Shown here one piece after another: positions 10,135 through 28,234 of a stretch of 64,000 bases of DNA. Below the pieces are notes generated by a model. It saw only the letters and a list, made by a program, of their open reading frames with translations, ran no database searches and was not told where the DNA came from. The position numbers were made by a program, and so were the translations under genes. The stretch lies in assembly GCF_004364865.1 (NCBI RefSeq), contig NZ_SOAU01000001.1, positions 1,302,001 to 1,366,000 on the forward strand, written 5' to 3'. How positions within the stretch are numbered: the first letter of the stretch is position 1; each line of letters starts with the position of its first letter. Source of the DNA: Ilumatobacter fluminis. Lineage in GTDB: Bacteria > Actinomycetota > Acidimicrobiia > Acidimicrobiales > Ilumatobacteraceae.

Positions 10135-10137
10135 GGT
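10132..10137 (+). promoter_or_regulatory. Candidate -10 (TAGGGT) overlapping the GT4 stop codon
   Basis: The TAG stop of the preceding gene forms the first half of the hexamer. It lies 7 nt before ATG 10145, so the GT2 gene may have its own leaderless transcript. Confidence 0.45.
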
Positions 10138-10144
10138 CCGACCG

Positions 10145-13776: not shown

Positions 13777-13927
13777 GATCGGGTCGACCTGCGCGGAACG
13801 GAGGTGGGCGGGAGGAAGCTCATCGAGATGGTGCGGCGGCGTTTGCCGTCGTCGGCCTGGGCAATCTACCGCTGACACGGTTCGGGTTCGGGAGCACGGC
13901 GGGGCCGAGCTGGTAGAACGAGAACGG

Positions 13928-15292
13928 ATGGACGGCGCCATGACCACACCTGCCACTGGTGCGGGGCGGTTCGCCCGCTCACCGAGTTCGCTCGCGGCGA
14001 TCGCCTTGGTCGTGCTCGTCGTCGCCGCGACGATCTCGGACGCGGACGCGTTGAGCGCCTTCCTGGTCGCGGTCGGTCTGCTGGTGGGAGCCTGGCCTGC
14101 ATGGACGATGCGGCGGGATCGCATCGTCATCGTCGCTGGGACGATCGTCGCCACATGGCTCGTCTACGGGCTGATCGTGGGGTCCCTCCCGTCGCCGAAC
14201 TCGACCGGCGACGTCGCCGACTGGGCGAGCACCGAGGGGCGAGTGCTCGTCGTGGTCGCAACGATCGCGATCGCGTCGGCGGTGACCTCGATCGTCGATC
14301 TTCGCTGGACGGGACGTTCGATCGTGCTGGCCGTGACCGCCGCCCACGTCCTGGCGTTCGTCGCGTTCGGCGCCGGATCGTCGCTCCCGGGCTTTCGCGT
14401 CGATCTGAACGGGCTGTTCATGGGTCTGTCGAGCTCGCATCACGTGGTCGGCTTCGTGGCTGTCGGCGTGCTGATGATCGTGCTGTCGTGTCCGTCGTGG
14501 TTCGTGTCGTGGCAGCAGGCCGTCGCCGGTCTGGTGGCGTTGGCATCGATCGTTGCGGCCGGCTCGCGCACCTCGTTGCTGGCCTTGCTGTGCGGTGGCG
14601 CCGTGATCGCATGGCGTCGGCTCGACCGTCGCCGCTTCGTGATCGCCGTCGTCATCGTCGCTCTCCTCGGTGCCGCGCTGGTCGCATCCAGCGCACGTTT
14701 TCGGACCACGGTCGACGTGATGACACGTCCGGAGTTCCCGTCCGAGGTGTGGCGTTCGTTCACGAACGGTGGGACGCAGGGCATCCGCGACATGTCCGAC
14801 TCTGCGCCCGAGGCGAACATCTTGTTGCGCGTCGCTCTCTGGGGAGTCGCTGCCGAAGATTTCGTCGACAGCCCGATCGTCGGTATCGGAGTGTTTCGTC
14901 AGAACGACGACGACCTCGCGTTCGAGGGTGTTCGACACGTCGTCTTCGTCGCGACATCGGGGGAGAACCGGTTCGGCGACGACGAACCCCACAACGTTCT
15001 GCTCTTCCTCGGGCAGGAAGTCGGTGTGCTCGGCGTGGCCCTGTACGCCACTCCGTACATGATGGCTTGGCGTCGGACCCGTCGGCGGGACGAGGGTCCC
15101 GATGACGGGGGTGTCGTCGGCCTCGATGAGGTTCGACTGCTCACGCGGGCGACGATCGTGATGGCCTTCGCCGGGAGCATGGTCAGCAGTGGCGTGCTGG
15201 CGACCGGTCTCGGGCTGGTCTCGAATGCCATGATCTTCGCGGCGGCCGCCGTCGTCACAGCGGCTCGGCGGGACAGGGAGATCACCACGTGA
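13928..15292 (+). CDS. O-antigen ligase/polymerase-like membrane protein
   Basis: 454 residues; ATG 13928 (alternative ATG 13940). About ten hydrophobic segments, plus one large polar loop between ~260 and 370 containing the substrate-type region (FVDSPIVGIGVFR ... DEPHNVLLFLGQEVGVLG). The P-x-x-G-x-G and H-N motifs there are typical of the Wzy/WaaL superfamily. It should polymerise or ligate lipid-linked oligosaccharides on the outer membrane face. Overlaps the next gene by 4 nt. Confidence 0.78.
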   Translation: MDGAMTTPATGAGRFARSPSSLAAIALVVLVVAATISDADALSAFLVAVGLLVGAWPAWTMRRDRIVIVAGTIVATWLVYGLIVGSLPSPNSTGDVADWASTEGRVLVVVATIAIASAVTSIVDLRWTGRSIVLAVTAAHVLAFVAFGAGSSLPGFRVDLNGLFMGLSSSHHVVGFVAVGVLMIVLSCPSWFVSWQQAVAGLVALASIVAAGSRTSLLALLCGGAVIAWRRLDRRRFVIAVVIVALLGAALVASSARFRTTVDVMTRPEFPSEVWRSFTNGGTQGIRDMSDSAPEANILLRVALWGVAAEDFVDSPIVGIGVFRQNDDDLAFEGVRHVVFVATSGENRFGDDEPHNVLLFLGQEVGVLGVALYATPYMMAWRRTRRRDEGPDDGGVVGLDEVRLLTRATIVMAFAGSMVSSGVLATGLGLVSNAMIFAAAAVVTAARRDREITT

Positions 15293-17448
15293 GCACGAGC
15301 GAGTTCGAGGGCGGCTGGCAGGCCGATGCGCCACTGGGACGCGTCGCGCTCGGGTTGGTGGCCGGGCTCGTCGTCTTCGCGACCGGCGTCCGCCCGACCG
15401 GCAATGTGGTGATCGATCTGATCGAGACGGTGATCGCTGTTGCGGTCGTGGTCGTCGTGGGGGCACGAGCACCGTGGTGGATGCTCGTCGCCGCGGCCGG
15501 CATCGCGGGTGCTGTGGGCTTGTCGGTGTGGCCGATCCTGGTGGCCGTCATGGCCTTCGCGCTGGCTGCGTGGGTGTCGCCGGTCGATGCCGACGCGGCG
15601 GCACGTGCCGATGTCGGCGCGTTCAGTGTCTCGTTGACGATGGTCTCGTTCTCGCTCAGCGAGCTCGACATCGTCACCGGCGCGTCGGCGATGGTCGGTA
15701 TCGGGACCGGGTTGGCGCTGATCGTCGGAGGCCTGGGTTCGTTGACGGCGTTCGTGCGCAAGCGTCTGCTCGTCGTCGGTGGCGTGGCAGTCGCGGTTGC
15801 CGTGGCCGGAACCGCCGCGCTCGGTGTGGCGGCGAACGGCGCTCGAGACGACCTCGGCTCCGGTGTCGACAACGCTCGCGCCGCTGCGAGGCAGGCTGCC
15901 GATCTGGAGGCCGACGCTGCGGCCGACGACATGCGGACCGCGGCGAGCGATCTCGAGGCGGCGAACGAACGAATCGACGCGTGGTGGACCCAACCCGCTC
16001 GACTGGTGCCGATCGTCGCCCAGCACCGGACTGCCGCTGCTGACCTCACCGAGGAGGTCTCCGACCAGCTCGACGCCGCCGCCGACGACCTGGAGGACAT
16101 GTCGCTCGATCGGTTGCAGGTCGTCGATGGCGCGGTCGACATCGACGCACTCCGGATGCTCGCCGAGCCGGTCGAACGGTTTGCGGAACGGATCGACCGC
16201 CTCGGCACGCTCGCCGACGAGGTCGACAGCGTGTGGCTCGCCCCGCCGGTGAAGGACAAGCTCGACGAGGTCGACGACGAGCTCGTCGATCTCGGCCCAC
16301 AGCTCGATCGAGCGCAGCTGGCGCTCGAGTCGTTGCCGGCCATGTTGGGGGAGAACGAAGCTCGCCGCTACCTGCTGCTCTTCACCACGCCGTCGGAGGC
16401 GCGCGGGCTCGGCGGGTTCATCGGCAACTATGCGATCGTGTCGATCGACGACGGGCGGCTCCGAGTCGACGAGGCGGGCAGGCGCTCCGAACTCGAGCGA
16501 GTGGCGGTCGAAGCAGAGGTCGTGATCGACGGCCCACCGGGCCTGCTGGCGACGTACGGAAAGTTCGGTCTCGGCGGTGACGGTGAGCCGGTGGGGCCAC
16601 GGAGCTGGTCGAACCTCACGCTCGAGCCCGATTGGCCGTCGTTCGCGTCGGCTGCTCATCAGCTCTACAACGATGCCAACGACGACGACGTCCACGGCGT
16701 CGTCGTGATGGATCCATATGTGCTCGGACAGCTCTCGGAGTACACGGGGCCGGTCGAGACGAACGACGGGCAGCGGCTCGAAGGAGACGAACTCGTCGAC
16801 TACATCCTGCTCGGGCAGTACGCGTCCGAGCAGCGTCTCGATGAGCTCGAGACCTTGTCGACCCAGCTCGTCGACGCCTTCTTGGACTCCTCCCTTCCCA
16901 AGCCTCGCCGGCTCGCACGTGACTTCGAGCCGCTCGTCGACGAGCAGCGGTTGCTGGTCTGGGCAGCGGACGAGACCGAACAGGCGATGCTCGTCGAGGT
17001 CGGTGTCGGGGACGGCCTGCCCGATCCGACCGGCCGAGACGCCTTCACGCTCGCGCTGAACAACAGCGGTGGCAACAAGATCGACGCCTTTCTCGAGCGG
17101 GAGGTCACCCTCGAGCGTGCGGGCGACGTCGTCCGAGCCACGGTCGAACTCACCAACGAAGCGCCGACCGACGGGTACACCGACTACGTGATCGGCAACC
17201 TCTCCGGGCTCCCGACCGGCACCAGCCGCCTGTATCTGGTGGCGTACACGAGCGATCAGGTCGACACGGCGACGGTCGACGGCGCGCCGGCGGCCATCGA
17301 ACGCGGCGACGAACTCGGCTGGTCGACGTCGGCCCACTACGTGGTGCTCGGGCCGGGGGAGCGGACCGAGGTCGTGTACGAGTTCCCGGCCCGCTCGACG
17401 GATTCGGCGATACTGGAGCGGCTCCAGCCACTGGCGACCCGTGAGTGA
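15289..17448 (+). CDS. DUF4012 membrane-anchored extracellular protein
   Basis: 719 residues from GTG 15289. Residues 1-180 hold several membrane segments, followed by an Ala/Asp/Glu-rich helical stretch likely to form a coiled coil (~185-340). The recognisable DUF4012 core starts at AMLGENEARRYLLLF with EARGLGGFIGNYAIV. DUF4012 proteins sit in actinobacterial polysaccharide loci next to priming transferases, as here, and resemble LytR-CpsA-Psr-like surface attachment proteins in context only. No biochemical function is established that I know of. Confidence 0.75.
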   Translation: MSTSEFEGGWQADAPLGRVALGLVAGLVVFATGVRPTGNVVIDLIETVIAVAVVVVVGARAPWWMLVAAAGIAGAVGLSVWPILVAVMAFALAAWVSPVDADAAARADVGAFSVSLTMVSFSLSELDIVTGASAMVGIGTGLALIVGGLGSLTAFVRKRLLVVGGVAVAVAVAGTAALGVAANGARDDLGSGVDNARAAARQAADLEADAAADDMRTAASDLEAANERIDAWWTQPARLVPIVAQHRTAAADLTEEVSDQLDAAADDLEDMSLDRLQVVDGAVDIDALRMLAEPVERFAERIDRLGTLADEVDSVWLAPPVKDKLDEVDDELVDLGPQLDRAQLALESLPAMLGENEARRYLLLFTTPSEARGLGGFIGNYAIVSIDDGRLRVDEAGRRSELERVAVEAEVVIDGPPGLLATYGKFGLGGDGEPVGPRSWSNLTLEPDWPSFASAAHQLYNDANDDDVHGVVVMDPYVLGQLSEYTGPVETNDGQRLEGDELVDYILLGQYASEQRLDELETLSTQLVDAFLDSSLPKPRRLARDFEPLVDEQRLLVWAADETEQAMLVEVGVGDGLPDPTGRDAFTLALNNSGGNKIDAFLEREVTLERAGDVVRATVELTNEAPTDGYTDYVIGNLSGLPTGTSRLYLVAYTSDQVDTATVDGAPAAIERGDELGWSTSAHYVVLGPGERTEVVYEFPARSTDSAILERLQPLATRE

Positions 17449-18163
17449 CAACGACGACCCCATGACTCCCGCGACCCACCCGACCGTCGACGCAGCAACC
17501 GATGCGACGCGCGTCGATGCTGCGGCACGGGTCTCCCAACCGCCCGTCGGGTTGCTGTATCGGTCGTTCAGGCGAACGACCGACGTCGTGGTGAGCTTCG
17601 TCGGTTTGGTGTGCAGCCTGCCGCTCTTCCTCGTCGTCGCTGCGATCATCGCCACGTCGAGCCGAGGGCCTGTGTTCTTCAGCCAGGAACGGGTCGGACT
17701 CGACGGCAAGCGGTTCCTCGTCGTGAAGTTCCGCACGATGCGGCAGGGGACCGACCGTGAAGTGCTGACCGATCCGGCGGCGTACGAGGCGTACGTCGCG
17801 AACGGATACAAGCTGGGCGAGGACGATCCCAGGATCACGCGGATCGGCCGGTGGTTGCGCAAGACATCGCTCGACGAGCTGCCCCAGTTGGTGAACGTGC
17901 TCGCGGGTCAGATGTCCGTGGTCGGGGTCCGTCCGCTCGTTCCCGACGAGTTCGCCGCACGCGCCCCGTCCGACCGGGCCCTGTACGTGCGGTTGCGTCC
18001 CGGGCTCACGGGGCTGTGGCAGATCGCCGGCCGTTCGTCGCTGACGCCGGCGAACCGGATCGAACTCGACCGGGAGTACCTTCGGGCGCCGTCGATTCGC
18101 CACGACCTCGCGATCCTGTGCAAGACACCCGCGGCGCTGTCCCGGACGCAGGAGGCCCATTGA
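17441..18163 (+). CDS. Priming polyprenyl-phosphate sugar-1-phosphate transferase
   Basis: 240 residues, GTG 17441, 8-nt overlap with the DUF4012 gene. A single membrane hairpin (VVVSFVGLVCSLPLFLVVAAI) precedes the cytosolic catalytic part with FFSQERVGLDGKRF, VVKFRTMR, the TSLDELPQLVNVL block and VGVRPL. This is the short WcaJ/WbaP C-terminal type. It transfers a sugar phosphate to undecaprenyl (or decaprenyl) phosphate to start the glycan repeat unit. Confidence 0.9.
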   Translation: MSDNDDPMTPATHPTVDAATDATRVDAAARVSQPPVGLLYRSFRRTTDVVVSFVGLVCSLPLFLVVAAIIATSSRGPVFFSQERVGLDGKRFLVVKFRTMRQGTDREVLTDPAAYEAYVANGYKLGEDDPRITRIGRWLRKTSLDELPQLVNVLAGQMSVVGVRPLVPDEFAARAPSDRALYVRLRPGLTGLWQIAGRSSLTPANRIELDREYLRAPSIRHDLAILCKTPAALSRTQEAH

Positions 18164-19077
18164 GCGACCGCGAGCACGAGCTCGCCGTCCACCCGATTCC
18201 GCGGTGGGTGGGCCGTCTCGCTCGAGCGCAGCGCCCCACGGCGTTCGAGGACCTCGCCGCTCACGACGACATCGCTCCGAGCCCGGATGGCGTCACCGAC
18301 ACCGTCGTCGTCGCTGCAAGCCCGCGGACAGGTTCGAACTTGCTCGTCCACACCCTCCGGGAGCTCGGTGTCGGGGCGGGTGAAGAGTTCTGGACCGAGC
18401 GGATGATCTGGGCGGGCCGAGCCCGCTGGGGGGTGCCGACGATCGACACCCGAGGCGTACTGGGCCAGACGAAGCGGGCGTTGCTCCGGCGTGAACGCTG
18501 GTGGCTGAGCCGGAGCTTCGACGCGGACCAGTTCCTCCGCTATCAGCGTCTCCTCGAGCAGCATCGCTCGACACCCGACGGCGTGTTCGTGATCAAGGTG
18601 TTCCGGCTCCACCTCGATCAGCTCGAGCGTCGGAACCAGTTGTCACCGATCGACGTGCTCCCCGGACGGCTGCACTGGGTGTATCAGTGGCGGCGCGATC
18701 GCGTCGGTCAGGCGATCTCCTACCTCCGGGCGGATGCAACGGCGTCGTGGATCGACACCGACGGGACACGGACGCCCACGTTCGATCCCGACCGTCTGGT
18801 CGATGACGACTATGCCGAGCTCCGACGACTCGTCGAACGGTTCGATCGCAGTGACTCGTGGTGGCGAGCGTGGTTCGATCGACACGGCGTGACGCCGCTC
18901 GAGTTCGAGTACGAACAGCTCGTCGGCGACCTCCGCTCGGCCGTTGCACGAGTTTTCGAATCGCTCGGTCGACCGGTCCCCGACGACGTCGTCGGCGCGA
19001 CGGTCCGCCAACGCGACGATGCGAACGACGAGATCCGTACCCGTCTCCTCGATCGGTACCCGGAGCTCGACCGGTGA
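18160..19077 (+). CDS. Stf0-type sulfotransferase
   Basis: 305 residues. The start is TTG 18160 (TTGA overlap), set by a GGAGG Shine-Dalgarno at 18151-18155. The PAPS loop is VVAASPRTGSNLLVHTL, followed by an active-site region FVIKVFRLHLDQL and YQWRRDRVGQAISYLRA, the pattern of trehalose 2-sulfotransferase Stf0. It differs in family from the sulfotransferase at 12880-13776. Probable role: sulfation of a second position or a different acceptor in the same glycan or a glycolipid. Confidence 0.82.
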   Translation: MSDREHELAVHPIPRWVGRLARAQRPTAFEDLAAHDDIAPSPDGVTDTVVVAASPRTGSNLLVHTLRELGVGAGEEFWTERMIWAGRARWGVPTIDTRGVLGQTKRALLRRERWWLSRSFDADQFLRYQRLLEQHRSTPDGVFVIKVFRLHLDQLERRNQLSPIDVLPGRLHWVYQWRRDRVGQAISYLRADATASWIDTDGTRTPTFDPDRLVDDDYAELRRLVERFDRSDSWWRAWFDRHGVTPLEFEYEQLVGDLRSAVARVFESLGRPVPDDVVGATVRQRDDANDEIRTRLLDRYPELDR

Positions 19078-20162
19078 CCCGACGAGGGCCGCTCACGCTG
19101 AGCGGGCGCGAGCTCGACCTGATCCGAGCCGCGGTCGCGCCGCCCGCCGAGGCGGGCGCTGCGTGGAGCCGCTGGGCTGCCGAGCAGCCGCCCGCAGCCG
19201 CCGACTGGCGATCGCAGCAGCTGCTCGCCTACGTCGTCGAGCGTCTTGGCCCCGATGTGGTCGACGCTCCGACGCGAGATTGGGTCAAGCTGCAGCGACG
19301 TCGCATCTGGGCCGACAACCAGCTCGACCTCGCCGCGCTCGGGTCGGCGATCGACCTGCTCGCCGATCTGGTCTCCGAGCCGATCGTGATCAAGGGCGCT
19401 GCGATGATCGACACGGTGTACCCCCCAGGGCTGAGAGCGATGGGAGACGCCGACCTGGTCGTGGGGCCCGACGCCTACGAAGGGGCCATCGAACGATTGC
19501 TCGAGGCGGGATGGACGGCGGTCGACCGGGTCAGCGACCGGCACGTGTCGCGGGCTGTGGCGCTCGCGAGCCCGAACGGTCGCTCGCTCGACCTGCATCG
19601 GTGGGTGCTGTTCCCGCGTTCGATTCGCCGGCCGGGTGTCGAACTGATCGATCGTGCCGTGCCTGACGGGCCGTTCGGTGCCCGCCGTCTCGATTGGGCC
19701 GACTCGATCGTCCTCGCCGCGCTGCAGGGACCCGACGGTGGCCAGGCGAGTTCGCTGCGATGGCCGATCGATGTCGCCGTGCTGGCTCGACACGCCGGCG
19801 GCGACGTGTGGGACCGTGTCGAGCAGGGAGCCGAGTCGCTCGGGGTCGGGCGACCCGTCGGCGAGTCGCTCGACTGGCTCCGACGTGAGACCGGGGTCGG
19901 GCCGGAGGCCGAGCGGTGCGCTCGGATGTGTCGCCAACCGTACGATCGGTGGTTGGCCGCCGAGTGGGCGTGGCGTCGACGCGGTGGCAGCACGGACGCC
20001 AAGCTCAGGACCTACCGCGACATCAGCCGCGCGCTCGATCGCCGCCCGACGCCGGTCGGTTACGCCGCGGCCCGTTGGGCGGTGTTTCGCGAGAGCGGAG
20101 GCGCCGGTCCGTTCCTCCGGCGACGTTGGGCGCAGCTGAATAACACGTTCCGTGGCGATTGA
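19074..20162 (+). CDS. Nucleotidyltransferase-5 family protein (PF14907-like)
   Basis: 362 residues from GTG 19074 (GTGA overlap). The diagnostic centre is EPIVIKGAAMIDTVYPPGL followed by RAMGDADLVVGPDAY: an IKG motif and an acidic D-x-D pair that would hold the metal. A C-terminal helical part contains His/Trp-rich patches (SLDLHRWVLFPRS). These proteins co-occur with PqqD- and HPr-kinase-like genes in lasso-peptide and glycan loci, but their reaction is not settled. Family assignment is from memory of the motif. Confidence 0.7.
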   Translation: MTRRGPLTLSGRELDLIRAAVAPPAEAGAAWSRWAAEQPPAAADWRSQQLLAYVVERLGPDVVDAPTRDWVKLQRRRIWADNQLDLAALGSAIDLLADLVSEPIVIKGAAMIDTVYPPGLRAMGDADLVVGPDAYEGAIERLLEAGWTAVDRVSDRHVSRAVALASPNGRSLDLHRWVLFPRSIRRPGVELIDRAVPDGPFGARRLDWADSIVLAALQGPDGGQASSLRWPIDVAVLARHAGGDVWDRVEQGAESLGVGRPVGESLDWLRRETGVGPEAERCARMCRQPYDRWLAAEWAWRRRGGSTDAKLRTYRDISRALDRRPTPVGYAAARWAVFRESGGAGPFLRRRWAQLNNTFRGD

Positions 20163-20241
20163 AGTCGGACATGCGCACTGAGCGCGATCGGACATCGAGC
20201 GTTCACGAACAAAGGGTGGACTCGGGGACATGCCGCACGAC

Positions 20242-20247
20242 TAGAGT
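20242..20247 (+). promoter_or_regulatory. Candidate -10 (TAGAGT) of the LPXTG-protein gene
   Basis: Lies 7 nt before ATG 20255. A GTTCACGAAC near-palindrome at 20201-20210 lies about 30 bp further upstream and might be an operator. Confidence 0.5.
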
Positions 20248-20254
20248 GGCTGAC

Positions 20255-20797
20255 ATGGTGGACAAGAGCGTGTTCAAGCGGGCCGGCCTCCTCATGGCGT
20301 TGGCAGGCGGCGGCCTGCTGGCAACAGGAGCCGTGGCGCAGGCATACCCGCCCCTCGAGCCGGCCGTGTCGGTCGACGACCCGACGCCCGACCCGAGCGG
20401 TCCGGTGATCGCCACCGTCACCGGGTGCCAGCCCGGCGAGACGGTCGAGTTCGAACTCGTCGACTCCACCGACACCGACACGTGCGTCGAAGTCAACGGC
20501 GCCGGGTTCGCTCAGGTCGCCGTCGCCGACGGAACCGCCACCGGCGACCTCGAGGCACCCGCCAGCCCGGGCACCTACCAGGGCACCGCCGAACTGCTCA
20601 CCACCGAAGCGACGTTGCCGTTCCAGATCGTCGTCGAGGCCGGGGTCACCCCGCCGCCGACGCCGACCACGCCCGTCACGCTGCCGAGTACCGGTGGCGA
20701 ATCGGGTCAGATGGTGCCGCTCGCCGTCGGCTTGCTCGCAGCGGGCGCCGGCCTGCTTGCCGTGGCGTCGTTCCGACGCCGACACGCCGAGGCCTGA
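20255..20797 (+). CDS. Sortase-anchored small surface protein (LPXTG)
   Basis: 180 residues. Signal peptide FKRAGLLMALAGGGLLATGAVAQA (cleavage after AQA). The mature domain of about 110 residues resembles a small beta-sandwich (DPSGPVIATVTGCQPGETVEF) with one Cys pair (VTGCQ, TDTCVEV). Then a Pro/Thr spacer, the sorting motif LPSTG, a hydrophobic stretch and the RRRH tail. A sortase should cleave T-G and link it to the cell wall; none is in the window. It sits mid-locus and may be an acceptor of the glycan. Confidence 0.83.
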   Translation: MVDKSVFKRAGLLMALAGGGLLATGAVAQAYPPLEPAVSVDDPTPDPSGPVIATVTGCQPGETVEFELVDSTDTDTCVEVNGAGFAQVAVADGTATGDLEAPASPGTYQGTAELLTTEATLPFQIVVEAGVTPPPTPTTPVTLPSTGGESGQMVPLAVGLLAAGAGLLAVASFRRRHAEA

Positions 20798-20855
20798 TCC
20801 GATCGGCGGCGTCGCTGCCGCCGATGTGATCGACCTCCGGCAGGAGGTCGCGCAC

Positions 20856-20861
20856 TACCGT
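20856..20861 (+). promoter_or_regulatory. Candidate -10 (TACCGT) of the PqqD/HPrK/GT operon
   Basis: Lies 8 nt before ATG 20870 and probably drives the six-gene cassette that follows, in which every junction overlaps. Confidence 0.5.
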
Positions 20862-20869
20862 TGTCCTCC

Positions 20870-21259
20870 ATGCCTCGTTATCGCGCCTCTGCATCCACCG
20901 CCGCCGAGATCCTCGACGGCGAGGCGATCGTGATCGACCTCGCATCGGGGGCGTACTTCAGCTTCACCGGCTGGACCACGTGGGCGTGGGAGTCGTTGAC
21001 CGCAGGCGCCGACAGCGACGAGATCGCTGCGGTGTTCGCCGACCATGGCGGCATCGACGAGTTCGTCGAACAACTCACGAGCGCCGGCCTGCTCGTCGCT
21101 CGCGACGGCGGCGATCCCGAGCCGATGCCGCAACGTCCTGACGGCGACGTCGAGCCGCTGCAGTTCGACCGGTTCGACGACATGGCCGACATGATCAAGA
21201 TCGATCCCGTGCACGACGTTTCCCAGGAGGCCGGGTGGCCACAGCCGGCCGACGGCTGA
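20870..21259 (+). CDS. PqqD-like peptide-binding protein
   Basis: 129 residues from ATG 20870. Residues 1-85 match the PqqD winged-helix fold: an ILDGEAIVIDLASGAYFSFTG strand pair, then TTWAWESL and a helical VEQLTSAGLLV. Such domains bind leader peptides in RiPP pathways or accompany kinases. An acidic tail of about 45 residues ends DPVHDVSQEAGWPQPADG and is not part of the PqqD core. The HPr-kinase-like gene starts inside this tail's coding region, so the two are tightly coupled. Confidence 0.72.
   Translation: MPRYRASASTAAEILDGEAIVIDLASGAYFSFTGWTTWAWESLTAGADSDEIAAVFADHGGIDEFVEQLTSAGLLVARDGGDPEPMPQRPDGDVEPLQFDRFDDMADMIKIDPVHDVSQEAGWPQPADG
21225..21230 (+). promoter_or_regulatory. Shine-Dalgarno AGGAGG inside the PqqD-like gene
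   Basis: Perfect AGGAGG 4 nt before GTG 21235; it fixes that start for the kinase-like gene and creates a 25-nt overlap. Confidence 0.7.
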
Positions 21260-22281
21260 CCTCCGATCCACGACGGGCGATCGCCGAACTGCGTGCGTCG
21301 TGGACAGCGTGCACCGGCCCGGTCACGTCGTTTGCGTTCCGGCTCGGCGGCCTGACGATCCGACTGCACGGTGCGGGCACGGTGCTCGAACGGTTGGTGC
21401 CGGCGTTCGAACATCACCCGCCCGTCGAGGACACGACCGTCGCCCCGGATCTCACGGTGCTCGTCTGGGATCTGTCGATCACCGAGCACCGGCCCCACCT
21501 CGCCGGCGACGTGTTCCACGTCGACGGCGACCACGACGAATCCCGCTCCGGTGGCGAGGTCCGGGTCCGATACGACTGGCCTCAGCAGGCGATCCAGGTC
21601 TGGGACGCCGACGAGGCGACCGGCTACTGGGTGATCGAGGACCCCGACCGCCTCGCGTGGTGGGAGGAAGCAGCCCCGCTGCGCCCGATGCTCGCCTGGT
21701 TCCTCACGGCACAGGGGTGGTACTTCGCTCACGGTGCGGCGGTCGCCGTCGACGATCGGGCCGTGCTGCTGGTGGGTCCGGGCGGCTCCGGGAAGTCGAC
21801 CACGGCATTGCGGTGTCAACGTGCCGGTCTCGACTACCTCGGCGACGACTATTGCCTCGTCGGCACGTTCGGCGACGATGATGGGTACGTGGTGGCGTCG
21901 CTGTATCGCACGGCCAAGCTCCGACCCGTCGACGGCCCGGGTTTCGAGGCGGAGCTGACGCGAAACGAGGAGGGCCGCAAGATCGTGCTCACGGTCGACG
22001 ATCGGCACGGCGGCGCCGTCATCGGCCGAGCCCGACTCCTCGGCGTCGCCTCCGTCGAGGTCGGCAGCGGAGCGACGACCGAGTTCTCCGCCGGTCACGC
22101 CGGCACCGTCCTGCAGGCCCTGGCACCGACCACGTTCGAACAGCTCCCAGGGGTCGGAGCCCGAAGCCTTCGGGCGTTCGCAACGATGCTCCGGAGCGTG
22201 CCGACCGGAATCATTCGACTGGGCCACGACACGGCCGGCGTGGTCACGGCGGTACGGGACCGAATCGAGGACTGGTCATGA
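21235..22281 (+). CDS. HPr-kinase-like serine kinase
   Basis: 348 residues. Walker A LLVGPGGSGKSTTAL near residues 178-192 and the HPrK-type second motif DYLGDDYCLV about 20 residues later. The N-terminal half (FRLGGLTIRLHG ... DLTVLVWDL) resembles the non-catalytic domain of this group. There is no HPr or PTS gene here. Related kinases phosphorylate lasso peptides (paeninodin PadeK) or unknown targets beside PqqD- and nucleotidyltransferase-5-type genes. The natural substrate is unknown; a peptide, the PqqD tail or a glycan are all conceivable. Confidence 0.75.
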   Translation: MATAGRRLTSDPRRAIAELRASWTACTGPVTSFAFRLGGLTIRLHGAGTVLERLVPAFEHHPPVEDTTVAPDLTVLVWDLSITEHRPHLAGDVFHVDGDHDESRSGGEVRVRYDWPQQAIQVWDADEATGYWVIEDPDRLAWWEEAAPLRPMLAWFLTAQGWYFAHGAAVAVDDRAVLLVGPGGSGKSTTALRCQRAGLDYLGDDYCLVGTFGDDDGYVVASLYRTAKLRPVDGPGFEAELTRNEEGRKIVLTVDDRHGGAVIGRARLLGVASVEVGSGATTEFSAGHAGTVLQALAPTTFEQLPGVGARSLRAFATMLRSVPTGIIRLGHDTAGVVTAVRDRIEDWS

Positions 22282-22982
22282 CGGACACCGCCGACCCTCT
22301 GGCCGTGACGGTGGTCGTCCCGATGCACAACAGTGTGGCGTACCTGGCCGAGACGTTGGAAGCGATCGGGGCCCAGACCCGCCCGGCATCCGAAGTCCTG
22401 GTCGTCGACGATCGTTCCACCGACGGCTCCGCCGACCTCGCCCGTCGCGTCCTCCCGCGCGTCCGGATCGAACGCGCCGACTTCGGCCATCCCGAACGAT
22501 CGCGCGGCTACGGCGTGCAATCGGCGTCGCACGAGCTGATCGCGTTCTGCGACGCCGACGATGTGTGGCTGCCGCACAAGCTCGAGCGCCAACTCGATGC
22601 CGTCGCCGACTTCGACCCGGCCGGACCACTGCTCTGTTGGACGAAGCTCGACGAGTTCGTGTCGCCCGAACTGTCCCCCGACGAATATCAGGGACGCGAA
22701 CCGTTCCTCGACCACGCGGCACGGCTCGTGTCGTCGCTGCTCACCACGAGGTCGACGTGCACGACCTCCTCGCCGACCCTCCAGGAGAGCGGCAGCTGGG
22801 TCGAGTGGGTGTCGGGCCTCGCTCCCGATGTTCCCTCGGTCGCCGTCGACGAGGTGCTGATGCGGCGTCGCCTCCACCTCACCAACCACAGCGCGGTCAC
22901 CCGCTCGTCCGATCAGATCGAGGCGTGGCTCCGCGCAGCACGCCAGGCGGCAGCCCAACATCGTGAGGACGGGAAACAGTGA
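22278..22982 (+). CDS. GT2-family glycosyltransferase (short)
   Basis: 234 residues, ATGA overlap with the kinase gene. GT-A motifs: TVVVPMHNSVAYLAETL, VVDDRSTDGS, and DxD in FCDADDVWLPHKLERQ. The usual C-terminal E-D-x-x-L motif is reduced (WVEWVSGL), so acceptor handling may be unusual. First of three consecutive short GT2s that bracket a nucleotidyltransferase-like gene. Confidence 0.8.
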   Translation: MTDTADPLAVTVVVPMHNSVAYLAETLEAIGAQTRPASEVLVVDDRSTDGSADLARRVLPRVRIERADFGHPERSRGYGVQSASHELIAFCDADDVWLPHKLERQLDAVADFDPAGPLLCWTKLDEFVSPELSPDEYQGREPFLDHAARLVSSLLTTRSTCTTSSPTLQESGSWVEWVSGLAPDVPSVAVDEVLMRRRLHLTNHSAVTRSSDQIEAWLRAARQAAAQHREDGKQ

Positions 22983-23671
22983 CGCAGCCGGATGTCACGG
23001 TCGTCGTGCCCGTTTACAACCGGGGGAGCGTCGTCGGCGACGCCGTCGCCAGCATCGTGCGACAAGATGTCCCCGCCCGGATCGTCCTGGTCGACGACGG
23101 CTCGTCCGACGACACGCTCGCCGTCCTGACGAGCCTCGCCGAGACGTCGGGGGGACGGGTGAGCGTCGTGGCCCAGGACAACGCCGGGCCCGCCGCTGCC
23201 CGCAACGCCGGCGTCGCGGCGAGCTCGACCGAACTCGTGACCTTTCTCGACAGCGACGACCTCATGGAGCCCGGCCGGCTGCAGCGGCAGATCGACGCGT
23301 GGCGTGAGGCGCCGGGCCAGGTCGTGGTGATCGGCCACGAGCGGGTCGAGATCGCCCCCGGCGTGGAGCCGCCCGACCACATCGCGACCCGGATGTCGAC
23401 CGGGCAGACGCTGTACCACACATCGGTCTTGCTCTCGCGGGCGCAGTACGACGCGGTCGGCGGGTTCGACGACACCATGCGGCTGGCTGAGGACGTCGAC
23501 TTCCTGATCAGGCTCGAAGAGGCGGGGAACGAGGTCGTCGACCTCGGGGACGTCGTGATCACCCGGCGGATCCTGGGCGACAACCTTGTCTACGACCCGG
23601 CGGTCGGGCGATCTCTGTTCCTCCTCCTCCGGCGTCGGGCAGAGCGGGCGAGGGAATCGGGTCGGCGATGA
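22979..23671 (+). CDS. GT2-family glycosyltransferase (short)
   Basis: 230 residues, GTG 22979 with GTGA overlap. Motifs: VTVVVPVYNRGSVVGDAVAS, LVDDGSSDDT, GPAAARNAGV, FLDSDDLMEPGRLQRQ, and the acceptor motif LAEDVDFLIRLEEAG. It closely parallels the protein at 24708-25418, including a C-terminal NLVYD and Arg-rich helix. The two probably arose by duplication and may add successive residues. Confidence 0.85.
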   Translation: MTQPDVTVVVPVYNRGSVVGDAVASIVRQDVPARIVLVDDGSSDDTLAVLTSLAETSGGRVSVVAQDNAGPAAARNAGVAASSTELVTFLDSDDLMEPGRLQRQIDAWREAPGQVVVIGHERVEIAPGVEPPDHIATRMSTGQTLYHTSVLLSRAQYDAVGGFDDTMRLAEDVDFLIRLEEAGNEVVDLGDVVITRRILGDNLVYDPAVGRSLFLLLRRRAERARESGRR

Positions 23672-24711
23672 CGCCGCGCGAGCGGCAGCGGCTCGCCGCG
23701 TTGCTCCGGGCAGCGACCTCGACCGGCGTCGCATCCATCGACGCGTGGCAGTCGCTGCCCGACGACTTCGACCTCGACGAGATCTGGGACCGGGAGCTCG
23801 GCCGACTCCTGCCGTCGATCGGCCGCAATCTCTCCGATGCCGGCGCCGACGTTCCCGAACTGCCGAGACTGCGAGGCTTCCAGCGCAAGTGGTGGGTCGA
23901 GCAACAGCTGACGGCGCGCTGGCTCGCCGAGCCGATCGACGTCCTCGCATCGGCCGGTCTCGACGTGGCCGTCGCCGGTGGTCTCGCGTGGTCGGCGAAC
24001 GCATGGGGGTATGCCGACCGACCAGGGGTTCGGTGGGCGGACGACACCCATCTGCTGGTTCGCGCGGACGATGCGGTGCGGGCCCATGCTGCGCTCGTCG
24101 GCGTCGGCGCGCACGGCCGTCCCGAGGAGCGCGTCGCTCGACGCGTGCGTTTGCACGTCGGGACACCGCTGCATGTCGACGAACGATGGACGACGCTGGG
24201 GTGGCTGCCGACCTCCGGAGTCCGGAGAACGGCCGACTGGTGGACGGATACGGTCGAGATCGAGGTCGGCGAACGCCAGGCCCATGCGCTCGAGCCCAAC
24301 GCAGCCTTCGTCGCCCGGTGCGGTGATCTCGCAGCGGGCATCGATGTGCCGAGCGCTCTGCTCGACCTGTGCCGCGTCCGGCAGAGCGCGACGTTCGACC
24401 GTTCGATGGTCCGGGCCGTCGCCGGTCGCTGGGGTCTCGACGACGCGGCCGCCCGATGGTCGACGGTCGTCGACCAGGTGCTCGACCCGACCGACGACCG
24501 CTGGATCGACGCCGTCGCTCCCATCGGCCGGCTCGAGGCGGCCCGACGTTCGTGGTCGACCACCGTGGGCCGACTCGGTCGACGCCGAGCGGTCGCAGCC
24601 GGCCCCGAACTGCTCGCCGAACGGTGGCACCTGTCGCATGTCGGCGAACTGCCGGCCGGACTCGCACGTCGGCTTCGTGATCGAACACGACGGTTCCGAG
24701 GCGCAGCGTGA
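23668..24711 (+). CDS. Divergent nucleotidyltransferase-5-like protein
   Basis: 347 residues, ATGA overlap. The layout follows the protein at 19074-20162: a long N-terminal helical region (FQRKWWVEQQLTARWL), then VLASAGLDVAVAGGLAWSAN and RWADDTHLLVRADDA where the paralogue has IKGAAM and MGDADLVV. The Lys of the IKG motif is absent and the D-x-D is rearranged to DDTHL, so catalysis may be altered or lost. Family placement is inferred from this comparison and position; I am only moderately sure. Confidence 0.55.
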   Translation: MTPRERQRLAALLRAATSTGVASIDAWQSLPDDFDLDEIWDRELGRLLPSIGRNLSDAGADVPELPRLRGFQRKWWVEQQLTARWLAEPIDVLASAGLDVAVAGGLAWSANAWGYADRPGVRWADDTHLLVRADDAVRAHAALVGVGAHGRPEERVARRVRLHVGTPLHVDERWTTLGWLPTSGVRRTADWWTDTVEIEVGERQAHALEPNAAFVARCGDLAAGIDVPSALLDLCRVRQSATFDRSMVRAVAGRWGLDDAAARWSTVVDQVLDPTDDRWIDAVAPIGRLEAARRSWSTTVGRLGRRRAVAAGPELLAERWHLSHVGELPAGLARRLRDRTRRFRGAA

Positions 24712-25418
24712 CCCGCTCGCCGTCCGTCGCCGTCGTCGTCCCGGTCCTCGATCGTCCGATGGTCACCGATGCGGTCGACAGTGCCCTCGCTGCGATCGGG
24801 GTCGACGTCGAGATCGTCGTCGTCGACGACGGTTCCGGGCCTGAGACATCCGATCTGGTCGATCGCCTGGCAGCGGCGCATCCCGCCGTCTCGGCGATCC
24901 ACCAACCGAACCGGGGACAGTCGGCCGCGCGCAACACCGGCGTGGCGTCGTCGGTCGCCCCGGTCGTCGCCTTCCTCGACAGCGACGATCTCATGGTCCC
25001 GGACCGCCTGGTCCGTCAGATCGAGGTGCTGACCGCCTCACCCGACCGGTCGTTCGTCCTCGGACAGGAGGAACTCGTGGTCGCCGACGGAGTCCAGTTG
25101 CCCCGTCAGGAGGCGGCGCGAGCAGAGCGCGGCGAACGTACCTACTTCTCGTCGGTGCTGCTCCGACGGTCCGACTTCGAGTCGATCGGTGGCTACGACG
25201 AGTCGCTCCGCTACGGCGAGGACATCGATCTCGTCGTCCGCCTCACCGATGCGGGCTTGTCGATGGTGACGATCGACGACGTCGTGGTGAGGCGGCGGAT
25301 CCATGGCGACAACCTCGTGATGGACGAGGAGGCCGTCGATCGGGCAATCTTCGAGGTGTACCGCCGCCGCGCTCGACGGCGAGCGAGTCAGGACCGGTCG
25401 TCGTCGGCGGCCAAGTAG
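24708..25418 (+). CDS. GT2-family glycosyltransferase (short)
   Basis: 236 residues, GTG 24708 with GTGA overlap. Motifs: VAVVVPVLDRPMVTDAVDSA, VVDDGSGPET, QSAARNTGVASS, FLDSDDLMVPDRLVRQIE, and LRYGEDIDLVVRLTDAG. Paralogue of the 22979 gene. Ends the cassette; its last 31 nt overlap the convergent nuclease gene. Confidence 0.84.
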   Translation: MTRSPSVAVVVPVLDRPMVTDAVDSALAAIGVDVEIVVVDDGSGPETSDLVDRLAAAHPAVSAIHQPNRGQSAARNTGVASSVAPVVAFLDSDDLMVPDRLVRQIEVLTASPDRSFVLGQEELVVADGVQLPRQEAARAERGERTYFSSVLLRRSDFESIGGYDESLRYGEDIDLVVRLTDAGLSMVTIDDVVVRRRIHGDNLVMDEEAVDRAIFEVYRRRARRRASQDRSSSAAK

Positions 25419-26320
25419 GCCTGGCCCTCGTCGCACTCCGAGGCCATCGGGCACCACTTGCACGACACACCCGGACGCTTGACCGGCGTCCGCCCCTCGA
25501 CCTGGAGTTCGATCTCGGCGTGTATGGCGTCGAGGGTGCGTCGTGTTGCCGTGAGCAGGATCCGTTCGTCGACGTCTTCGACGACCGGCTCGCCGGCATC
25601 GAGGTAGAACGACGCCAACTTGCGCGGTGGAACGCCGGTGCGGAGTGTCTCGACGAGGGCGTAGAAGCGGAGGTCTTCACGATGCTTCGGTGACACCCAC
25701 CCGGTCTTGAGGTCGATGATCACCTTGCGGCTCTCGGCACCGGCCGGCCGGCCGATCGTGAGGTCGACCTTGCCGGACAGGACGATCGGGCCCTGGATGG
25801 GCCACCGCACGGATGATTCGGTGGTCGGCGCTGCCCGCCGGTCGAGCGGCGGGAAGCACTCGACGAACTTGATGACCTTGTCGACCGCGAAGCCGGTGAG
25901 GTCAGCGCGGTCCGCTTCGCTCAGCCGCTCGATCCACTCGCCGAGTGACGTGTCCTCGTCGGCCAGGCGTGCGATCGCCTCGTCGACCAGGTCGGCCGGG
26001 ACCGGATCGCCGCGCCAGTTGATGCCGATCTGGATCGCACGATGCGCGACCTGCCCGCCGGCGACGGCCGGCGACCACGAGAAGTCGTCGGGCAGGAGGT
26101 GCTGGACCTCGCATCCGAGCACGCTCGTGACGCGGTGCTTGCTCAGGAACAGGGTCGTCGTCCCGAGTCGCTCGGCGAACTCGGCGAAGGCGTCGTCGAC
26201 GTCGCTGCGGATCGAAGCGACGAACGCCTGGTCGAACACCAGCGGATCGGGCGCTCGCCGGAGCAGCCCGAGCGTCTTGTTCTGCAGCGGCGTGAGTTCG
26301 GGGGGAGCCTTGTCGGTCAT
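25388..26320 (-). CDS. PD-(D/E)XK nuclease family protein (Cas4/RecB-like)
   Basis: 310 residues from ATG 26320, which overlaps the GT4 stop by 4 nt (ATGA). The nuclease core is GKVDLTIGRP followed by KVIIDLKTGW (the D and D-x-K of PD-(D/E)XK) and a downstream helix EDLRFYALVETL. C-terminal cysteines in VSCKWCPMASECDEG together with an upstream LGCEV could ligate an Fe-S cluster, as in Cas4 and AddB. No cas or helicase genes are near. Probably a DNA repair exonuclease; why it is co-transcribed with a glycosyltransferase is unclear. Confidence 0.78.
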   Translation of the reverse strand: MTDKAPPELTPLQNKTLGLLRRAPDPLVFDQAFVASIRSDVDDAFAEFAERLGTTTLFLSKHRVTSVLGCEVQHLLPDDFSWSPAVAGGQVAHRAIQIGINWRGDPVPADLVDEAIARLADEDTSLGEWIERLSEADRADLTGFAVDKVIKFVECFPPLDRRAAPTTESSVRWPIQGPIVLSGKVDLTIGRPAGAESRKVIIDLKTGWVSPKHREDLRFYALVETLRTGVPPRKLASFYLDAGEPVVEDVDERILLTATRRTLDAIHAEIELQVEGRTPVKRPGVSCKWCPMASECDEGQAYLAADDDRS

Positions 26321-27306
26321 GATGGGGTTCCGGTGATCAGTCTCCGGTAGACCCCCACCGTACGGTCCGCGACCTCGTCCCACGACGACACGAAGGCGGC
26401 GGGCGCTGGGCTTGCCAGGGCGTCGATGATGCCCTGCTCGATCGACCGATGGCGTCGAACCGCGACGAAGCGCGTTCCTGCCCAGGCCGCCTCGATGCTC
26501 GCGAACCCGAATCCCTCGTCGTACGAACCGTCGACGACCAGGGTCGCGGAGCGGTACAGATGGGCGAGCTCGCCCCAGTCGGGCTGGCTGACGAGGACGG
26601 CCGTCTTCTCCTCCTCGATCCGCTCGAGCAGCGCCGGCGTCGCGACTCTGGCTCCGGCCACGACCAGAGGGAGCCCGGTCGTCTCGGCGATCGTCGGCCA
26701 GACATCGAGGAGTTCGGCGATGCCCTTGCGGGGGTTTCCGTCGCCGACCGTGAGGGCGAACCGGTCCGGAAGACGTACCGCCGGACTCGTGGGCGTTGCC
26801 GACGCGAGCACGCCCGGAACCGCTGCACCGGCGTCGACGACCGGCGTCTCGGCCGGCACGTACTCCGTCGCGAGGCTCGCCATCCGTGCGTCGAGCGTGA
26901 CGACGGCGTCGGCGTGCCGGAGCGAACGTCGGAACAGCGGCGGGAGAACGACTCGTTTGAGTCGGTCGTAGTCGTCGGGACGCGTCAACGCGAAGTCGTC
27001 GTGGAACGTGAGAACGGTCGGGACACGCAGGCCGAACGGTACGAGCTGCCGGGTCGCATGGACGACGTCGACGTTTGCGTCGTGCAGCCGCCGCGCCGCC
27101 ACGGCGACGCCGAGCTGTTCGACGCTGCGACGAGCCGGGACAGCGATGACCTCGCTCGGCTGCACCGAGAGTTCGGCGATCGCGTCGTCGGAGCCGAGGG
27201 CGACGACGTCGACGTCGCGCCGTCGGTCGAGTGCGGCGACGAGCTCGCGCGCGTACGTCGCTGTACCTCCGTAGCCGGTGGGTCCGACGGTGACGGCGAC
27301 GCGCAC
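26317..27306 (-). CDS. GT4-family glycosyltransferase
   Basis: 329 residues from GTG 27306. It opens VAVTVGPTGYGGTATYARELV (the glycine-rich GT-B entry) and includes TVLTFHDDFALTRP, FALTVGDGNPRKGIAELLDV and the catalytic YDEGFGFASIEAAWAG. Divergent from the GT2 at 27350, with back-to-back -10 elements, and upstream partner of the nuclease gene. Confidence 0.84.
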   Translation of the reverse strand: MRVAVTVGPTGYGGTATYARELVAALDRRRDVDVVALGSDDAIAELSVQPSEVIAVPARRSVEQLGVAVAARRLHDANVDVVHATRQLVPFGLRVPTVLTFHDDFALTRPDDYDRLKRVVLPPLFRRSLRHADAVVTLDARMASLATEYVPAETPVVDAGAAVPGVLASATPTSPAVRLPDRFALTVGDGNPRKGIAELLDVWPTIAETTGLPLVVAGARVATPALLERIEEEKTAVLVSQPDWGELAHLYRSATLVVDGSYDEGFGFASIEAAWAGTRFVAVRRHRSIEQGIIDALASPAPAAFVSSWDEVADRTVGVYRRLITGTPS

Positions 27307-27313
27307 CGGATCG

Positions 27314-27319
27314 AATCTA
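27314..27319 (-). promoter_or_regulatory. Candidate -10 (TAGATT) of the GT4/nuclease operon
   Basis: Seven nt separate it from GTG 27306. The -10 of the divergent gene is only 18 bp away, so the two promoters probably interfere or are co-regulated. Confidence 0.5.
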
Positions 27320-27337
27320 GCGATGTGCCCCGGACAC

Positions 27338-27343
27338 TACGCT
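27338..27343 (+). promoter_or_regulatory. Candidate -10 (TACGCT) of the divergent GT2 gene
   Basis: Six nt separate it from GTG 27350. Confidence 0.5.
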
Positions 27344-27349
27344 CGGCGC

Positions 27350-28234
27350 GTGACTGCGGAACTCACGGTCGTCATCCCGACGTATCAGCGGCCCGACCTC
27401 TGCCGGCGGTCGATCGCGTCGGTGCGACGCGTCGCCGAGGTGATCGACGTCGACATCGACCTGATCGTGGTCGAACAGGGCGCCGAACCGAGCTATTCCA
27501 TCCCGCTCGACTTCTCGGGTCGCTGGTTGTACTCGCACCGGTCGGGCGTGTCGTACGCCCGAAACCTGGGCCTGGCCCATGCCGAGACGCCCTACGTCAT
27601 CTTCGTCGACGACGACGCCGAACTCCTCCCGGGGGTCTCCGAGCTCCTCGACGCCGCACGTCAGCCGGGGGTCGACGTGGTCTGTGGGCGGATGATCTCG
27701 AGCGGGGGCACGACGATCCGGGGAACGGACCGGCCGCGCCGTATCAGGCCGTGGAACGCGTTCCGTCTGTTCGTCGAGCCCGCAGCCGTGTGGCGCACCG
27801 ACTCGATGAACGTCGTCGACGGCTTCGACGAGCGGCTCGGTCCGGCCAACCGGCTCGGCGCCGAGGAAGGCGCTGGGCTCCTGGCCAGACTGTCGCGTAC
27901 GCCGGGCGGGCGTCAGGCGTTCGTCCCGGCCGATGTCGTGGTCCACCCGGAGTTGGGGTCGACCCCGGACGACAAGGCACGGCGGTACGGCGCCGGCACG
28001 TCCGGGTTGATGGTGCTCGCTCCGGGGACGTGGTCGACGATCTATGCGATGAGCAGTGTGACTCGGCGGGTCGGGGGAGTGATCCGGAGTCGGCTTCGCG
28101 GCGATCGCGCCGGTGTGGCGCACCGGCGGGCCTGGCTCCGCGGATTCGCATCCGGGGTTCGCACCGCCCGGTCGCTCCGGGCATCACCGCGCAACACCCC
28201 GGCGGCCGACGTGCTCGTTCGTGTGGAGTCCTGA
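27350..28234 (+). CDS. GT2-family glycosyltransferase
   Basis: 294 residues. TVVIPTYQRPDLCRRSIASV, VVEQG in place of the usual DDGS, SYARNLGLAHAETPYVIF, DDD in FVDDDAELLPG, and a C-terminal acidic motif around GAEEGAGLLARL. The Arg-rich C-terminus may lie on the membrane surface. Last gene of the glycan region. Confidence 0.82.
   Translation: MTAELTVVIPTYQRPDLCRRSIASVRRVAEVIDVDIDLIVVEQGAEPSYSIPLDFSGRWLYSHRSGVSYARNLGLAHAETPYVIFVDDDAELLPGVSELLDAARQPGVDVVCGRMISSGGTTIRGTDRPRRIRPWNAFRLFVEPAAVWRTDSMNVVDGFDERLGPANRLGAEEGAGLLARLSRTPGGRQAFVPADVVVHPELGSTPDDKARRYGAGTSGLMVLAPGTWSTIYAMSSVTRRVGGVIRSRLRGDRAGVAHRRAWLRGFASGVRTARSLRASPRNTPAADVLVRVES

Follow-up and report, generated by a model that had tools for sequence, protein, structure and literature searches.

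A PqqD, HprK-like kinase and glycosyltransferase gene cassette with a conserved PqqD tail, found in Ilumatobacter fluminis and distant bacteria

Why should a PqqD-like domain, an HPr kinase (HprK)-like kinase and several short glycosyltransferases be encoded side by side where no lasso-peptide enzymes are found next to them? The question is raised by positions 19074 to 25418 of a 64,000-nucleotide stretch of DNA from Ilumatobacter fluminis (the window, 1302001-1366000 in a genome of 4.78 Mb on one contig). The genes there belong to a cassette consisting of a tailed PqqD protein, a kinase, short family 2 glycosyltransferases (GT2) and usually a nucleotidyltransferase of the NTP_transf_5 family. 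The set is real, conserved and undescribed within the literature searched, and may be a new variant of phospho-glycosylation linked to a RiPP (ribosomally synthesized and post-translationally modified peptide) recognition element (RRE). A search made mostly at the level of titles and abstracts, with sparse coverage of subscription journals, found no published description of a set in which PqqD and HprK-like kinase genes accompany NTP_transf and GT2 genes and lasso enzymes are missing; the two gene lists checked, in PMC10040529 and PMC7829367, concern lasso genes.

The cassette would phosphorylate and glycosylate a peptide or a glycan. The explanation that we prefer, with a probability of about 0.4, is a stand-alone module for RRE-guided phospho-glycosylation, acting on a peptide or protein whose gene lies at another place in the genome. 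The PqqD domain would hold this acceptor, and the conserved flexible tail of PqqD would serve to dock one of the other enzymes, in all likelihood the kinase. This kinase, of the HprK/phosphoenolpyruvate carboxykinase (PEPCK) type, would phosphorylate a hydroxyl group of the acceptor, probably that of a serine. The NTP_transf_5 protein would then add the first sugar to the phosphate, as reported for the pseudomycoidin nucleotidyltransferase, and the short GT2s would lengthen the glycan. We infer the peptide nature of the acceptor, the docking role of the tail and the order of the reactions. RRE domains serve as beacons for finding ribosomal peptide pathways. If the acceptor is indeed encoded elsewhere, the cassette would represent RRE-guided modification of proteins in trans; alternatively, a peptide-binding fold would have been put to another purpose. 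The cassette kinases and short GT2s may make phosphate-linked glycans. The scheme is modelled on phosphorylated lasso peptides, for which an HprK homologue is reported to phosphorylate the C-terminal serine of the lasso precursor; in pseudomycoidin the phosphorylated peptide then reportedly receives one or two hexoses from a nucleotidyltransferase (PMC8498205).

The genes at this locus are the following.

19074-20162, + strand: NTP_transf_5 nucleotidyltransferase with an intact catalytic motif (KG...R...DAD); Pfam 6e-21, above the cut-off
20246-20797, + strand: LPXTG surface protein (20159 being an alternative start); Pfam 1.6e-4 (22 bits, cut-off 20)
20870-21259, + strand: PqqD-like RRE domain with a conserved C-terminal tail; assigned from the alignment of relatives, a model and a fold match in the PDB
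21235-22281, + strand: kinase of HprK/PEPCK fold with His166, Walker A at G181-S188 and D204-D205; assigned from profile and model
22278-22982, + strand: short GT2 glycosyltransferase with a DADD motif; Pfam 3.5e-23
22979-23671, + strand: short GT2 glycosyltransferase with a DSDD motif; Pfam 2.2e-29
23668-24711, + strand: NTP_transf_5-like protein with a degenerate catalytic motif; hhalign 96.9%, E 1.3e-10
24708-25418, + strand: short GT2 glycosyltransferase with a DSDD motif; Pfam 1.2e-20

The coordinates given in the first-pass annotation of this DNA, together with its six overlapping genes from 20870 to 25418, were confirmed by the gene model, in which the successive overlaps are 25, 4, 4, 4 and 4 bp. 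Upstream of the six lie the intact NTP_transf_5 gene and then the gene of the LPXTG protein. On their own, the PqqD-like protein and the kinase of the window score below all curated cut-offs (Pfam, NCBIfam), and both assignments, weak by themselves, therefore rest on relatives and models. The annotation had also described a pair of NTP_transf_5 proteins. The intact copy at 19074 stands, and the degenerate state of the copy at 23668-24711 had gone unseen. The Pfam scan gave no NTP_transf_5 match to the latter, which was assigned solely through profile comparison; motif comparison shows that its KG is lost and that DxH replaces DxD, so that it may be inactive. This copy, close to an intact paralogue, could have a regulatory or scaffold role. 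The pattern 'RRxHxxN', considered as a signature of the GT2s, is not specific, being present in 44/90 cassette domains and in 4/10 outside.

Two genomes from other genera of the same family again have the order PqqD-kinase-GT2, flanked by unrelated genes, and one of the two has the exact series PqqD-kinase-GT2-GT2-NTP_transf_5. Scanning genome contigs with the kinase profile gave 16 loci, whose titles name Actinomycetota/Actinomycetes, Acidobacteria, Sumerlaeota, Anaerolineae, Burkholderiales, Rhodospirillaceae, Eremiobacterota, Planctomycetia and Dormiibacterota; all except the Dormiibacterota locus (15/16) have a tailed PqqD. Altogether the cassette occupies 48 non-redundant places in eight phyla, to which we presume the orders and classes to belong, including the cyanobacterium Crinalium. 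These remained from 60 tailed places when those with at least 70% identity over 90 residues were joined. The sources of fifteen of the 48 are the window itself, searches with the kinase and the plasmid described below (stretches L112 and L114, counted here, repeat the contigs L067 and L069 from the kinase searches), and 33 were found via PqqD searches, two of these (L111 and L113) lying in genomes reached through the kinase. Outside the 48 are L107 (N for the first Asp of the tail), L121 and L131 ('LDPP' in the tail), L130 and L093 (no such tail) and L080 (weak kinase match only).

Within 6 kb of the 48 tailed PqqD genes, a kinase is encoded in 45 cases, a GT2 in 42 and an NTP_transf_5 protein in 35. 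The first-pass annotation had proposed, as a check, a search for co-occurrence of PqqD, kinase and GT2 without a cyclase. At the 33 PqqD-found places the kinase is present in 30, GT2 in 27, NTP_transf_5 in 23 and all three in 21; at the 16 of these whose stretch extends 6 kb or more in each direction the numbers are 15, 16, 15 and 14, respectively. PqqD and kinase are on the same strand in 45/45 pairs and less than 150 bp apart in 39/45. Eight control stretches, hand-picked elsewhere on long carrier contigs (about 20 kb each, except for one of 5 kb), include none with a PqqD, kinase, NTP_transf_5 or short GT2 gene, and one with an ABC (ATP-binding cassette) match. The set recurs in distant genomes and is found in 0/8 controls, which is more than chance. 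The tree distances of PqqD are correlated with those of the kinase (r 0.58) and of NTP_transf_5 (r 0.46), neither value being reached in 2000 permutations (0/2000 each), with the effect of shared host ancestry still included in both.

Only a small proportion of genomes carry the tail: 15/296 in the class of the window genome and 5/396 in its phylum, and in the phyla of a Burkholderiales, an Anaerolineae, an Acidobacteria and a Planctomycetia genome 6/398, 6/271, 9/247 and 6/246, respectively. These counts are rough and come from match ranges: PqqD matches that reach the profile end were taken as tailed and those ending at about position 90-114 as ordinary PqqD. Only the best candidates per genome were scored, and the genome at the centre of each survey, cassette-bearing by choice, is included; two more genomes of the Acidobacteria survey and one of the Anaerolineae survey, having longer but incomplete matches, are left uncounted. 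The thin, patchy distribution and a kinase tree in which phyla are mixed make horizontal spread likely, judging from these sequences. Carriage by phages found no support, as the kinase query gave no match in phages or in viral contigs; one plasmid, that of Crinalium, carries the cassette, and the match in an Ensifer plasmid is limited to 14% of the kinase. The Crinalium epipsammum plasmid (NC_019735, typed as mobilizable; L094, 5896-17248) carries PqqD, two NTP_transf_5, the kinase, an FkbM methyltransferase, two glycosyltransferases, an SMP-30-like protein, a TPR protein and ABC genes, possibly a self-contained version of the cassette.

The conserved tail is the defining mark of the cassette, a sharp signature for genome mining and a simple handle for testing. 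The composition reported in the first-pass annotation was borne out, but this tail had been overlooked there. Its consensus in the alignment of cassette PqqD proteins is [FYH]xD[ML]x[DE]LLLxDP[IV]H[DE]V..GWP, and in the window protein it reads 'RFDDMADMIKIDPVHDVSQEAGWP' (about residues 101-124). An alignment of 25 members, made without any search pattern, shows no variation at D104, D112, P113, H115 and G122 and hardly any at W123. At the 48 places, where the first D, DP and H are set by the search pattern, the residues flanking it are [YFH] in 48/48, [DE] in 46/48 and GW in 46/48. No frame outside PqqD has the tail pattern among the 12107 frames of the examined stretches.

Some PqqD proteins depart from the consensus. 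The tail of L107 (9766-10227), FDNLRELLLMDPVH..GWP, which is not in the alignment of 25, has N for the first Asp, and in L121 and L131 'LDPP(M/I)PG' replaces 'DPIH'; in all three the kinase, GT2 and NTP_transf_5 are alongside. L091 and L092 keep DPIHD and end with 'GLTIRN' or 'GFTIRN' rather than 'GWP'. L115 and L116 have two tailed PqqD genes each, about 11-15 kb apart, with a kinase in L115 and not in L116.

The window PqqD matches the Pfam PqqD family at E 0.059. Of the 25 aligned family members, 21 match the NCBIfam family lasso_PqqD_Bac at E <=0.01 (best 5.8e-14); the window protein is not among them. In its structural model, residues 1-100 have a predicted local distance difference test score (pLDDT) above 90, residues 101-110 have a mean of 72, with a short helix at 105-110, and residues 111-129 are at about 55. 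The best match of the model in the PDB is TbiB1 (5v1v, E 3.2e-4), the sole match below 0.001, followed by 6jx3 (E 0.031). Both are lasso B1 proteins with leader peptides, so that the domain is an RRE by fold, and the cassette PqqD is predicted to have the B1-type RRE of lasso clusters. To this the model adds the tail, a flexible conserved motif, as would be expected if it served for docking.

Alternatively, PqqD might itself be the acceptor, the tail or residues nearby being phosphorylated and glycosylated and the protein acting as a carrier or being exported in modified form. Apart from the tail, the cassette yielded no short conserved peptide; the tail is, besides, predicted to be flexible and confined to PqqD frames in the stretches examined. 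However, no Ser or Thr is invariant in it, whereas D, P, H and G are and W almost is, and conservation of this kind suits a docking site better than a product. We regard this alternative as improbable. A related idea, that the cassettes form an RRE-dependent class in which the tailed PqqD is a dedicated carrier for a phosphate-linked glycan and a precursor peptide gene is dispensed with, seems to us unlikely.

The kinase is modelled with a mean pLDDT of 85.6, and the profile of its family matches HprK in the PDB at 4.6e-6. With L. casei HprK/P the model superimposes over residues 160-348 (Z 14.1, root mean square deviation (rmsd) 2.9, 138 aligned, VIA-align 2). Sequence and model together place it in the HprK/PEPCK superfamily, with which it shares the P-loop kinase fold, the His, Walker A and the Asp pair. 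The window kinase differs from HprK/P in falling below the HprK family cut-offs and in having a PEPCK-like N-terminal part as well. Of 45 cassette kinases, 44 show the Walker A pattern, a variant of which stands in L132; the Asp pair is missing in L135 and L136, and the His is missing in L078 and L089. The residues of the ATP site are thus kept in nearly all 45, and the lack of ATP binding named in the first-pass annotation as telling against its interpretation is not indicated by the sequences. Two stretches from one genus, L089 (9777-12293) and L090 (9608-12151), encode the kinase fused to two GT2 domains in one protein.

The similarity to phosphorylated lasso clusters of the paeninodin and pseudomycoidin type, pointed out in the first-pass annotation, holds for the parts: the B1-type PqqD domain, as judged by the lasso_PqqD_Bac and TbiB1 matches, the HprK-like kinase and the nucleotidyltransferase. 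Lasso clusters of Butyrivibrio fibrisolvens, as described in PMC7533575, also have a GT2 besides the nucleotidyltransferase and HPr kinase. The difference is that the cyclase, the B2 protease and a local precursor were not found by the cassette. The earlier statement that cyclase and protease are absent nearby is upheld: Transglut_core3, the B2 protease, has no match among the scanned window proteins (8959-28231), and the genome has three Asn_synthase matches, at 146, 750 and 1155 kb; as the cassette is at 1323 kb, about 168 kb separate it from the closest of them. Neighbours were tallied as 163 proteins (85 + 78, with 159 from other cassettes and 4 from the window), 25 families being listed per tally; neither Asn_synthase nor Transglut_core3 is among them, which leaves at most 2/85 and 1/78 proteins for each. 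By these sequence searches the cassette lacks the Asn_synthase-like cyclase and the B2 protease of a lasso cluster. As a control, the real lasso cluster L093, from the survey of the window genome's class, gave Asn_synthase at 6e-10 and Transglut_core3 at 3.4e-10; its PqqD, of 88 residues, is without the tail that the cassette PqqD carries, in this one cluster checked. The cyclase/protease profile of L093, built on a single seed, matched only that seed, and the Pfam tallies were relied on in its place.

One could suppose that the cassette is a degenerate lasso-peptide cluster which has lost cyclase, protease and precursor, as the kinship of its domains with lasso B1 proteins and with the HprK-like kinases of lasso clusters might suggest. 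This is highly improbable. The cassette is kept across the eight phyla with its own tailed PqqD, the kinases retain their active-site residues, and 43/45 of them (all but L089 and L136) are separate from nine other HprK-like kinases, including that of L093 beside its lasso cyclase, in a midpoint-rooted tree from which no support values were taken.

Two further systems are related by the names of their models. The NCBIfam HPr-rel-A system likewise combines an HprK-related kinase (HprK_rel_A) with a PqqD family protein (PqqD_rel_X). All 16 members of the cassette kinase family match TIGR04352 at E <=0.01, but the window kinase reaches 22.0 bits against the cut-off of 200, and 3/25 PqqD members match PqqD_rel_X (best 0.0025). 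Against HprK_rel_B the window kinase scores 26.8 bits (cut-off 200). As for SynChlorMet, 9/25 PqqD proteins match ScmD and 7/16 kinases match ScmC, the window kinase scoring 16.9 bits against a ScmC cut-off of 125. The SynChlorMet cassette has radical SAM (S-adenosylmethionine) partners.

Several results weigh against a module acting on a peptide encoded elsewhere. The nearest structures to the whole kinase model are ATP-dependent PEPCKs, with many PEPCK entries tied in the ranking (residues 10-348, Z 18.0, rmsd 4.3, 298 aligned, VIA-align 2), and this greater resemblance to PEPCK than to HprK makes a small-molecule or sugar substrate possible. Weak matches of 5/16 cassette kinases to the model of FomB, a phosphonate monophosphate kinase (best 2.8e-6), are a further hint of a small-molecule substrate at the level of sequence. 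NTP_transf_5 is missing within 6 kb in 13/48 places and the kinase in 3/48 (L115, at its second copy, L119 and L120), some of them on short contigs; the kinase and NTP_transf_5 tree distances are only loosely correlated (r 0.29), and 18/2000 permutations were as high. The second NTP_transf_5 of the window looks inactive by its sequence, and docking by the tail is hypothetical, the tail having been modelled by itself.

Moreover, the acceptor was not found in a search of small open reading frames (ORFs) around the 60 tailed places. These ORFs, 359 in number, have 20-150 codons and overlap called genes by at most 30%, in spans extended by 2 kb on each side; no family is common to unrelated loci except for one weak pair. 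Five groups join different stretches: four are among the sister loci L115, L116 and L117, one of them also including an ORF of L090, and the fifth is the weak pair L088-L120 (E 2.6e-4). A conserved small precursor gene beside the cassette therefore seems unlikely, as no ORF family recurs beyond that pair; a variable, overlapping or distant precursor is possible. The first-pass annotation had named a cyclase or precursor beside the loci of relatives as evidence against its interpretation, and neither turned up in the Pfam tallies or among these ORFs.

The same results suit a pathway in which a glycan is made or decorated. The kinase would phosphorylate a sugar or sugar nucleotide and NTP_transf_5 would transfer either a nucleotide or a sugar-phosphate; a phosphorylated oligosaccharide would be built by the GT2s, which family 4 glycosyltransferases (GT4), epimerases or an ABC exporter often accompany, PqqD being only a scaffold whose tail tethers the enzymes. 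The kinase model covers both PEPCK-like parts, and a precursor gene was not found. The most recurrent additional neighbours are glycan enzymes: Glycos_transf_1 in 17 (9/85 + 8/78) and Epimerase in 6 (3/85 + 3/78) of the 163 proteins, with Sulfotransfer_3 and FkbM methyltransferase in 3/85 each. ABC_tran accounts for 2/85 + 4/78, and 12/48 places have an ABC match no more than 6 kb from the tailed PqqD, in some cases to an unrelated importer. In the window the cassette is part of a glycan island in which Wzy, a priming transferase and ABC genes are also present. On the other hand, the PqqD domain is of the leader-binding B1 type, and we know of no glycan pathway that needs such a domain; several cassettes, moreover, lie amid unrelated genes, Wzy not having been searched for there. 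Given the glycan-enzyme neighbours and a whole kinase closest to PEPCK, synthesis of a glycan, itself a tentative explanation, is nearly as likely as modification of a peptide.

The island surrounding the cassette was defined by comparison with congeners:

8959-25418, no strand assigned: glycan island absent from congeners

It contains GT4, GT2, an ABC transporter, sulfotransferases, Wzy, DUF4012 and a priming transferase, followed by the cassette. Six stretches from congeners, each around the equivalent of the nuclease at 25388-26320, were compared. In L156, L157, L159, L160 and L163 the equivalent of 8334-8951 directly adjoins this nuclease, and L158 ends too early to decide. Of further congeners, two gave matches that were left unread and one gave no match. 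In L162, from another genus, the equivalent of 8334-8951 also adjoins the nuclease, and in L161 an S9 peptidase gene is there instead. Missing in 5/6 congener stretches, 8959-25418 is an island of Ilumatobacter fluminis within the genomes seen, and the kinase search in nine congeners gave nothing stronger than 5.8e-5. The cassette thus arrived here (or was lost elsewhere) with a glycan locus, and the neighbours of cassettes in other genomes are unrelated genes, so that a link between cassette and glycan locus is possible in this species and is not general. A search for attachment repeats flanking the island and for a nearby tRNA turned up nothing convincing.

Several island genes had been named in the first-pass annotation as neighbours of the system, and they do not recur as its partners. 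The priming transferase family Bac_transf has one match in the tally of 78 neighbours, from the window itself, and does not appear in the 25 families that the tally of 85 lists; sulfotransferases, at the frequency given above, are not regular members, and DUF4012 showed no recurrence as a partner of the cassette. The same holds for the LPXTG protein, which was considered as a conserved substrate and rejected. The called genes of the 48 loci have five LPXTG-like C termini: those at window positions 20246 and 46899 (the latter more than 20 kb away), one in L081 (1884-2675, more than 6 kb from the cassette), the one credible sorting signal outside the window, and two, in L124 and L086, that are probably not sorting signals. 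The protein at 20246-20797 therefore probably stands outside the conserved cassette; the window genome has six sortase matches.

A defence system was also considered and set aside, PADLOC being blank for seven proteins of 19074-25418, the LPXTG protein not among them. The nuclease adjoining the cassette has a weak DruK match. Beyond this nuclease, a GT4 and a GT2 at 26317-28234 are likewise missing in L156 and L157, so that glycan genes have been taken up on both sides of it.

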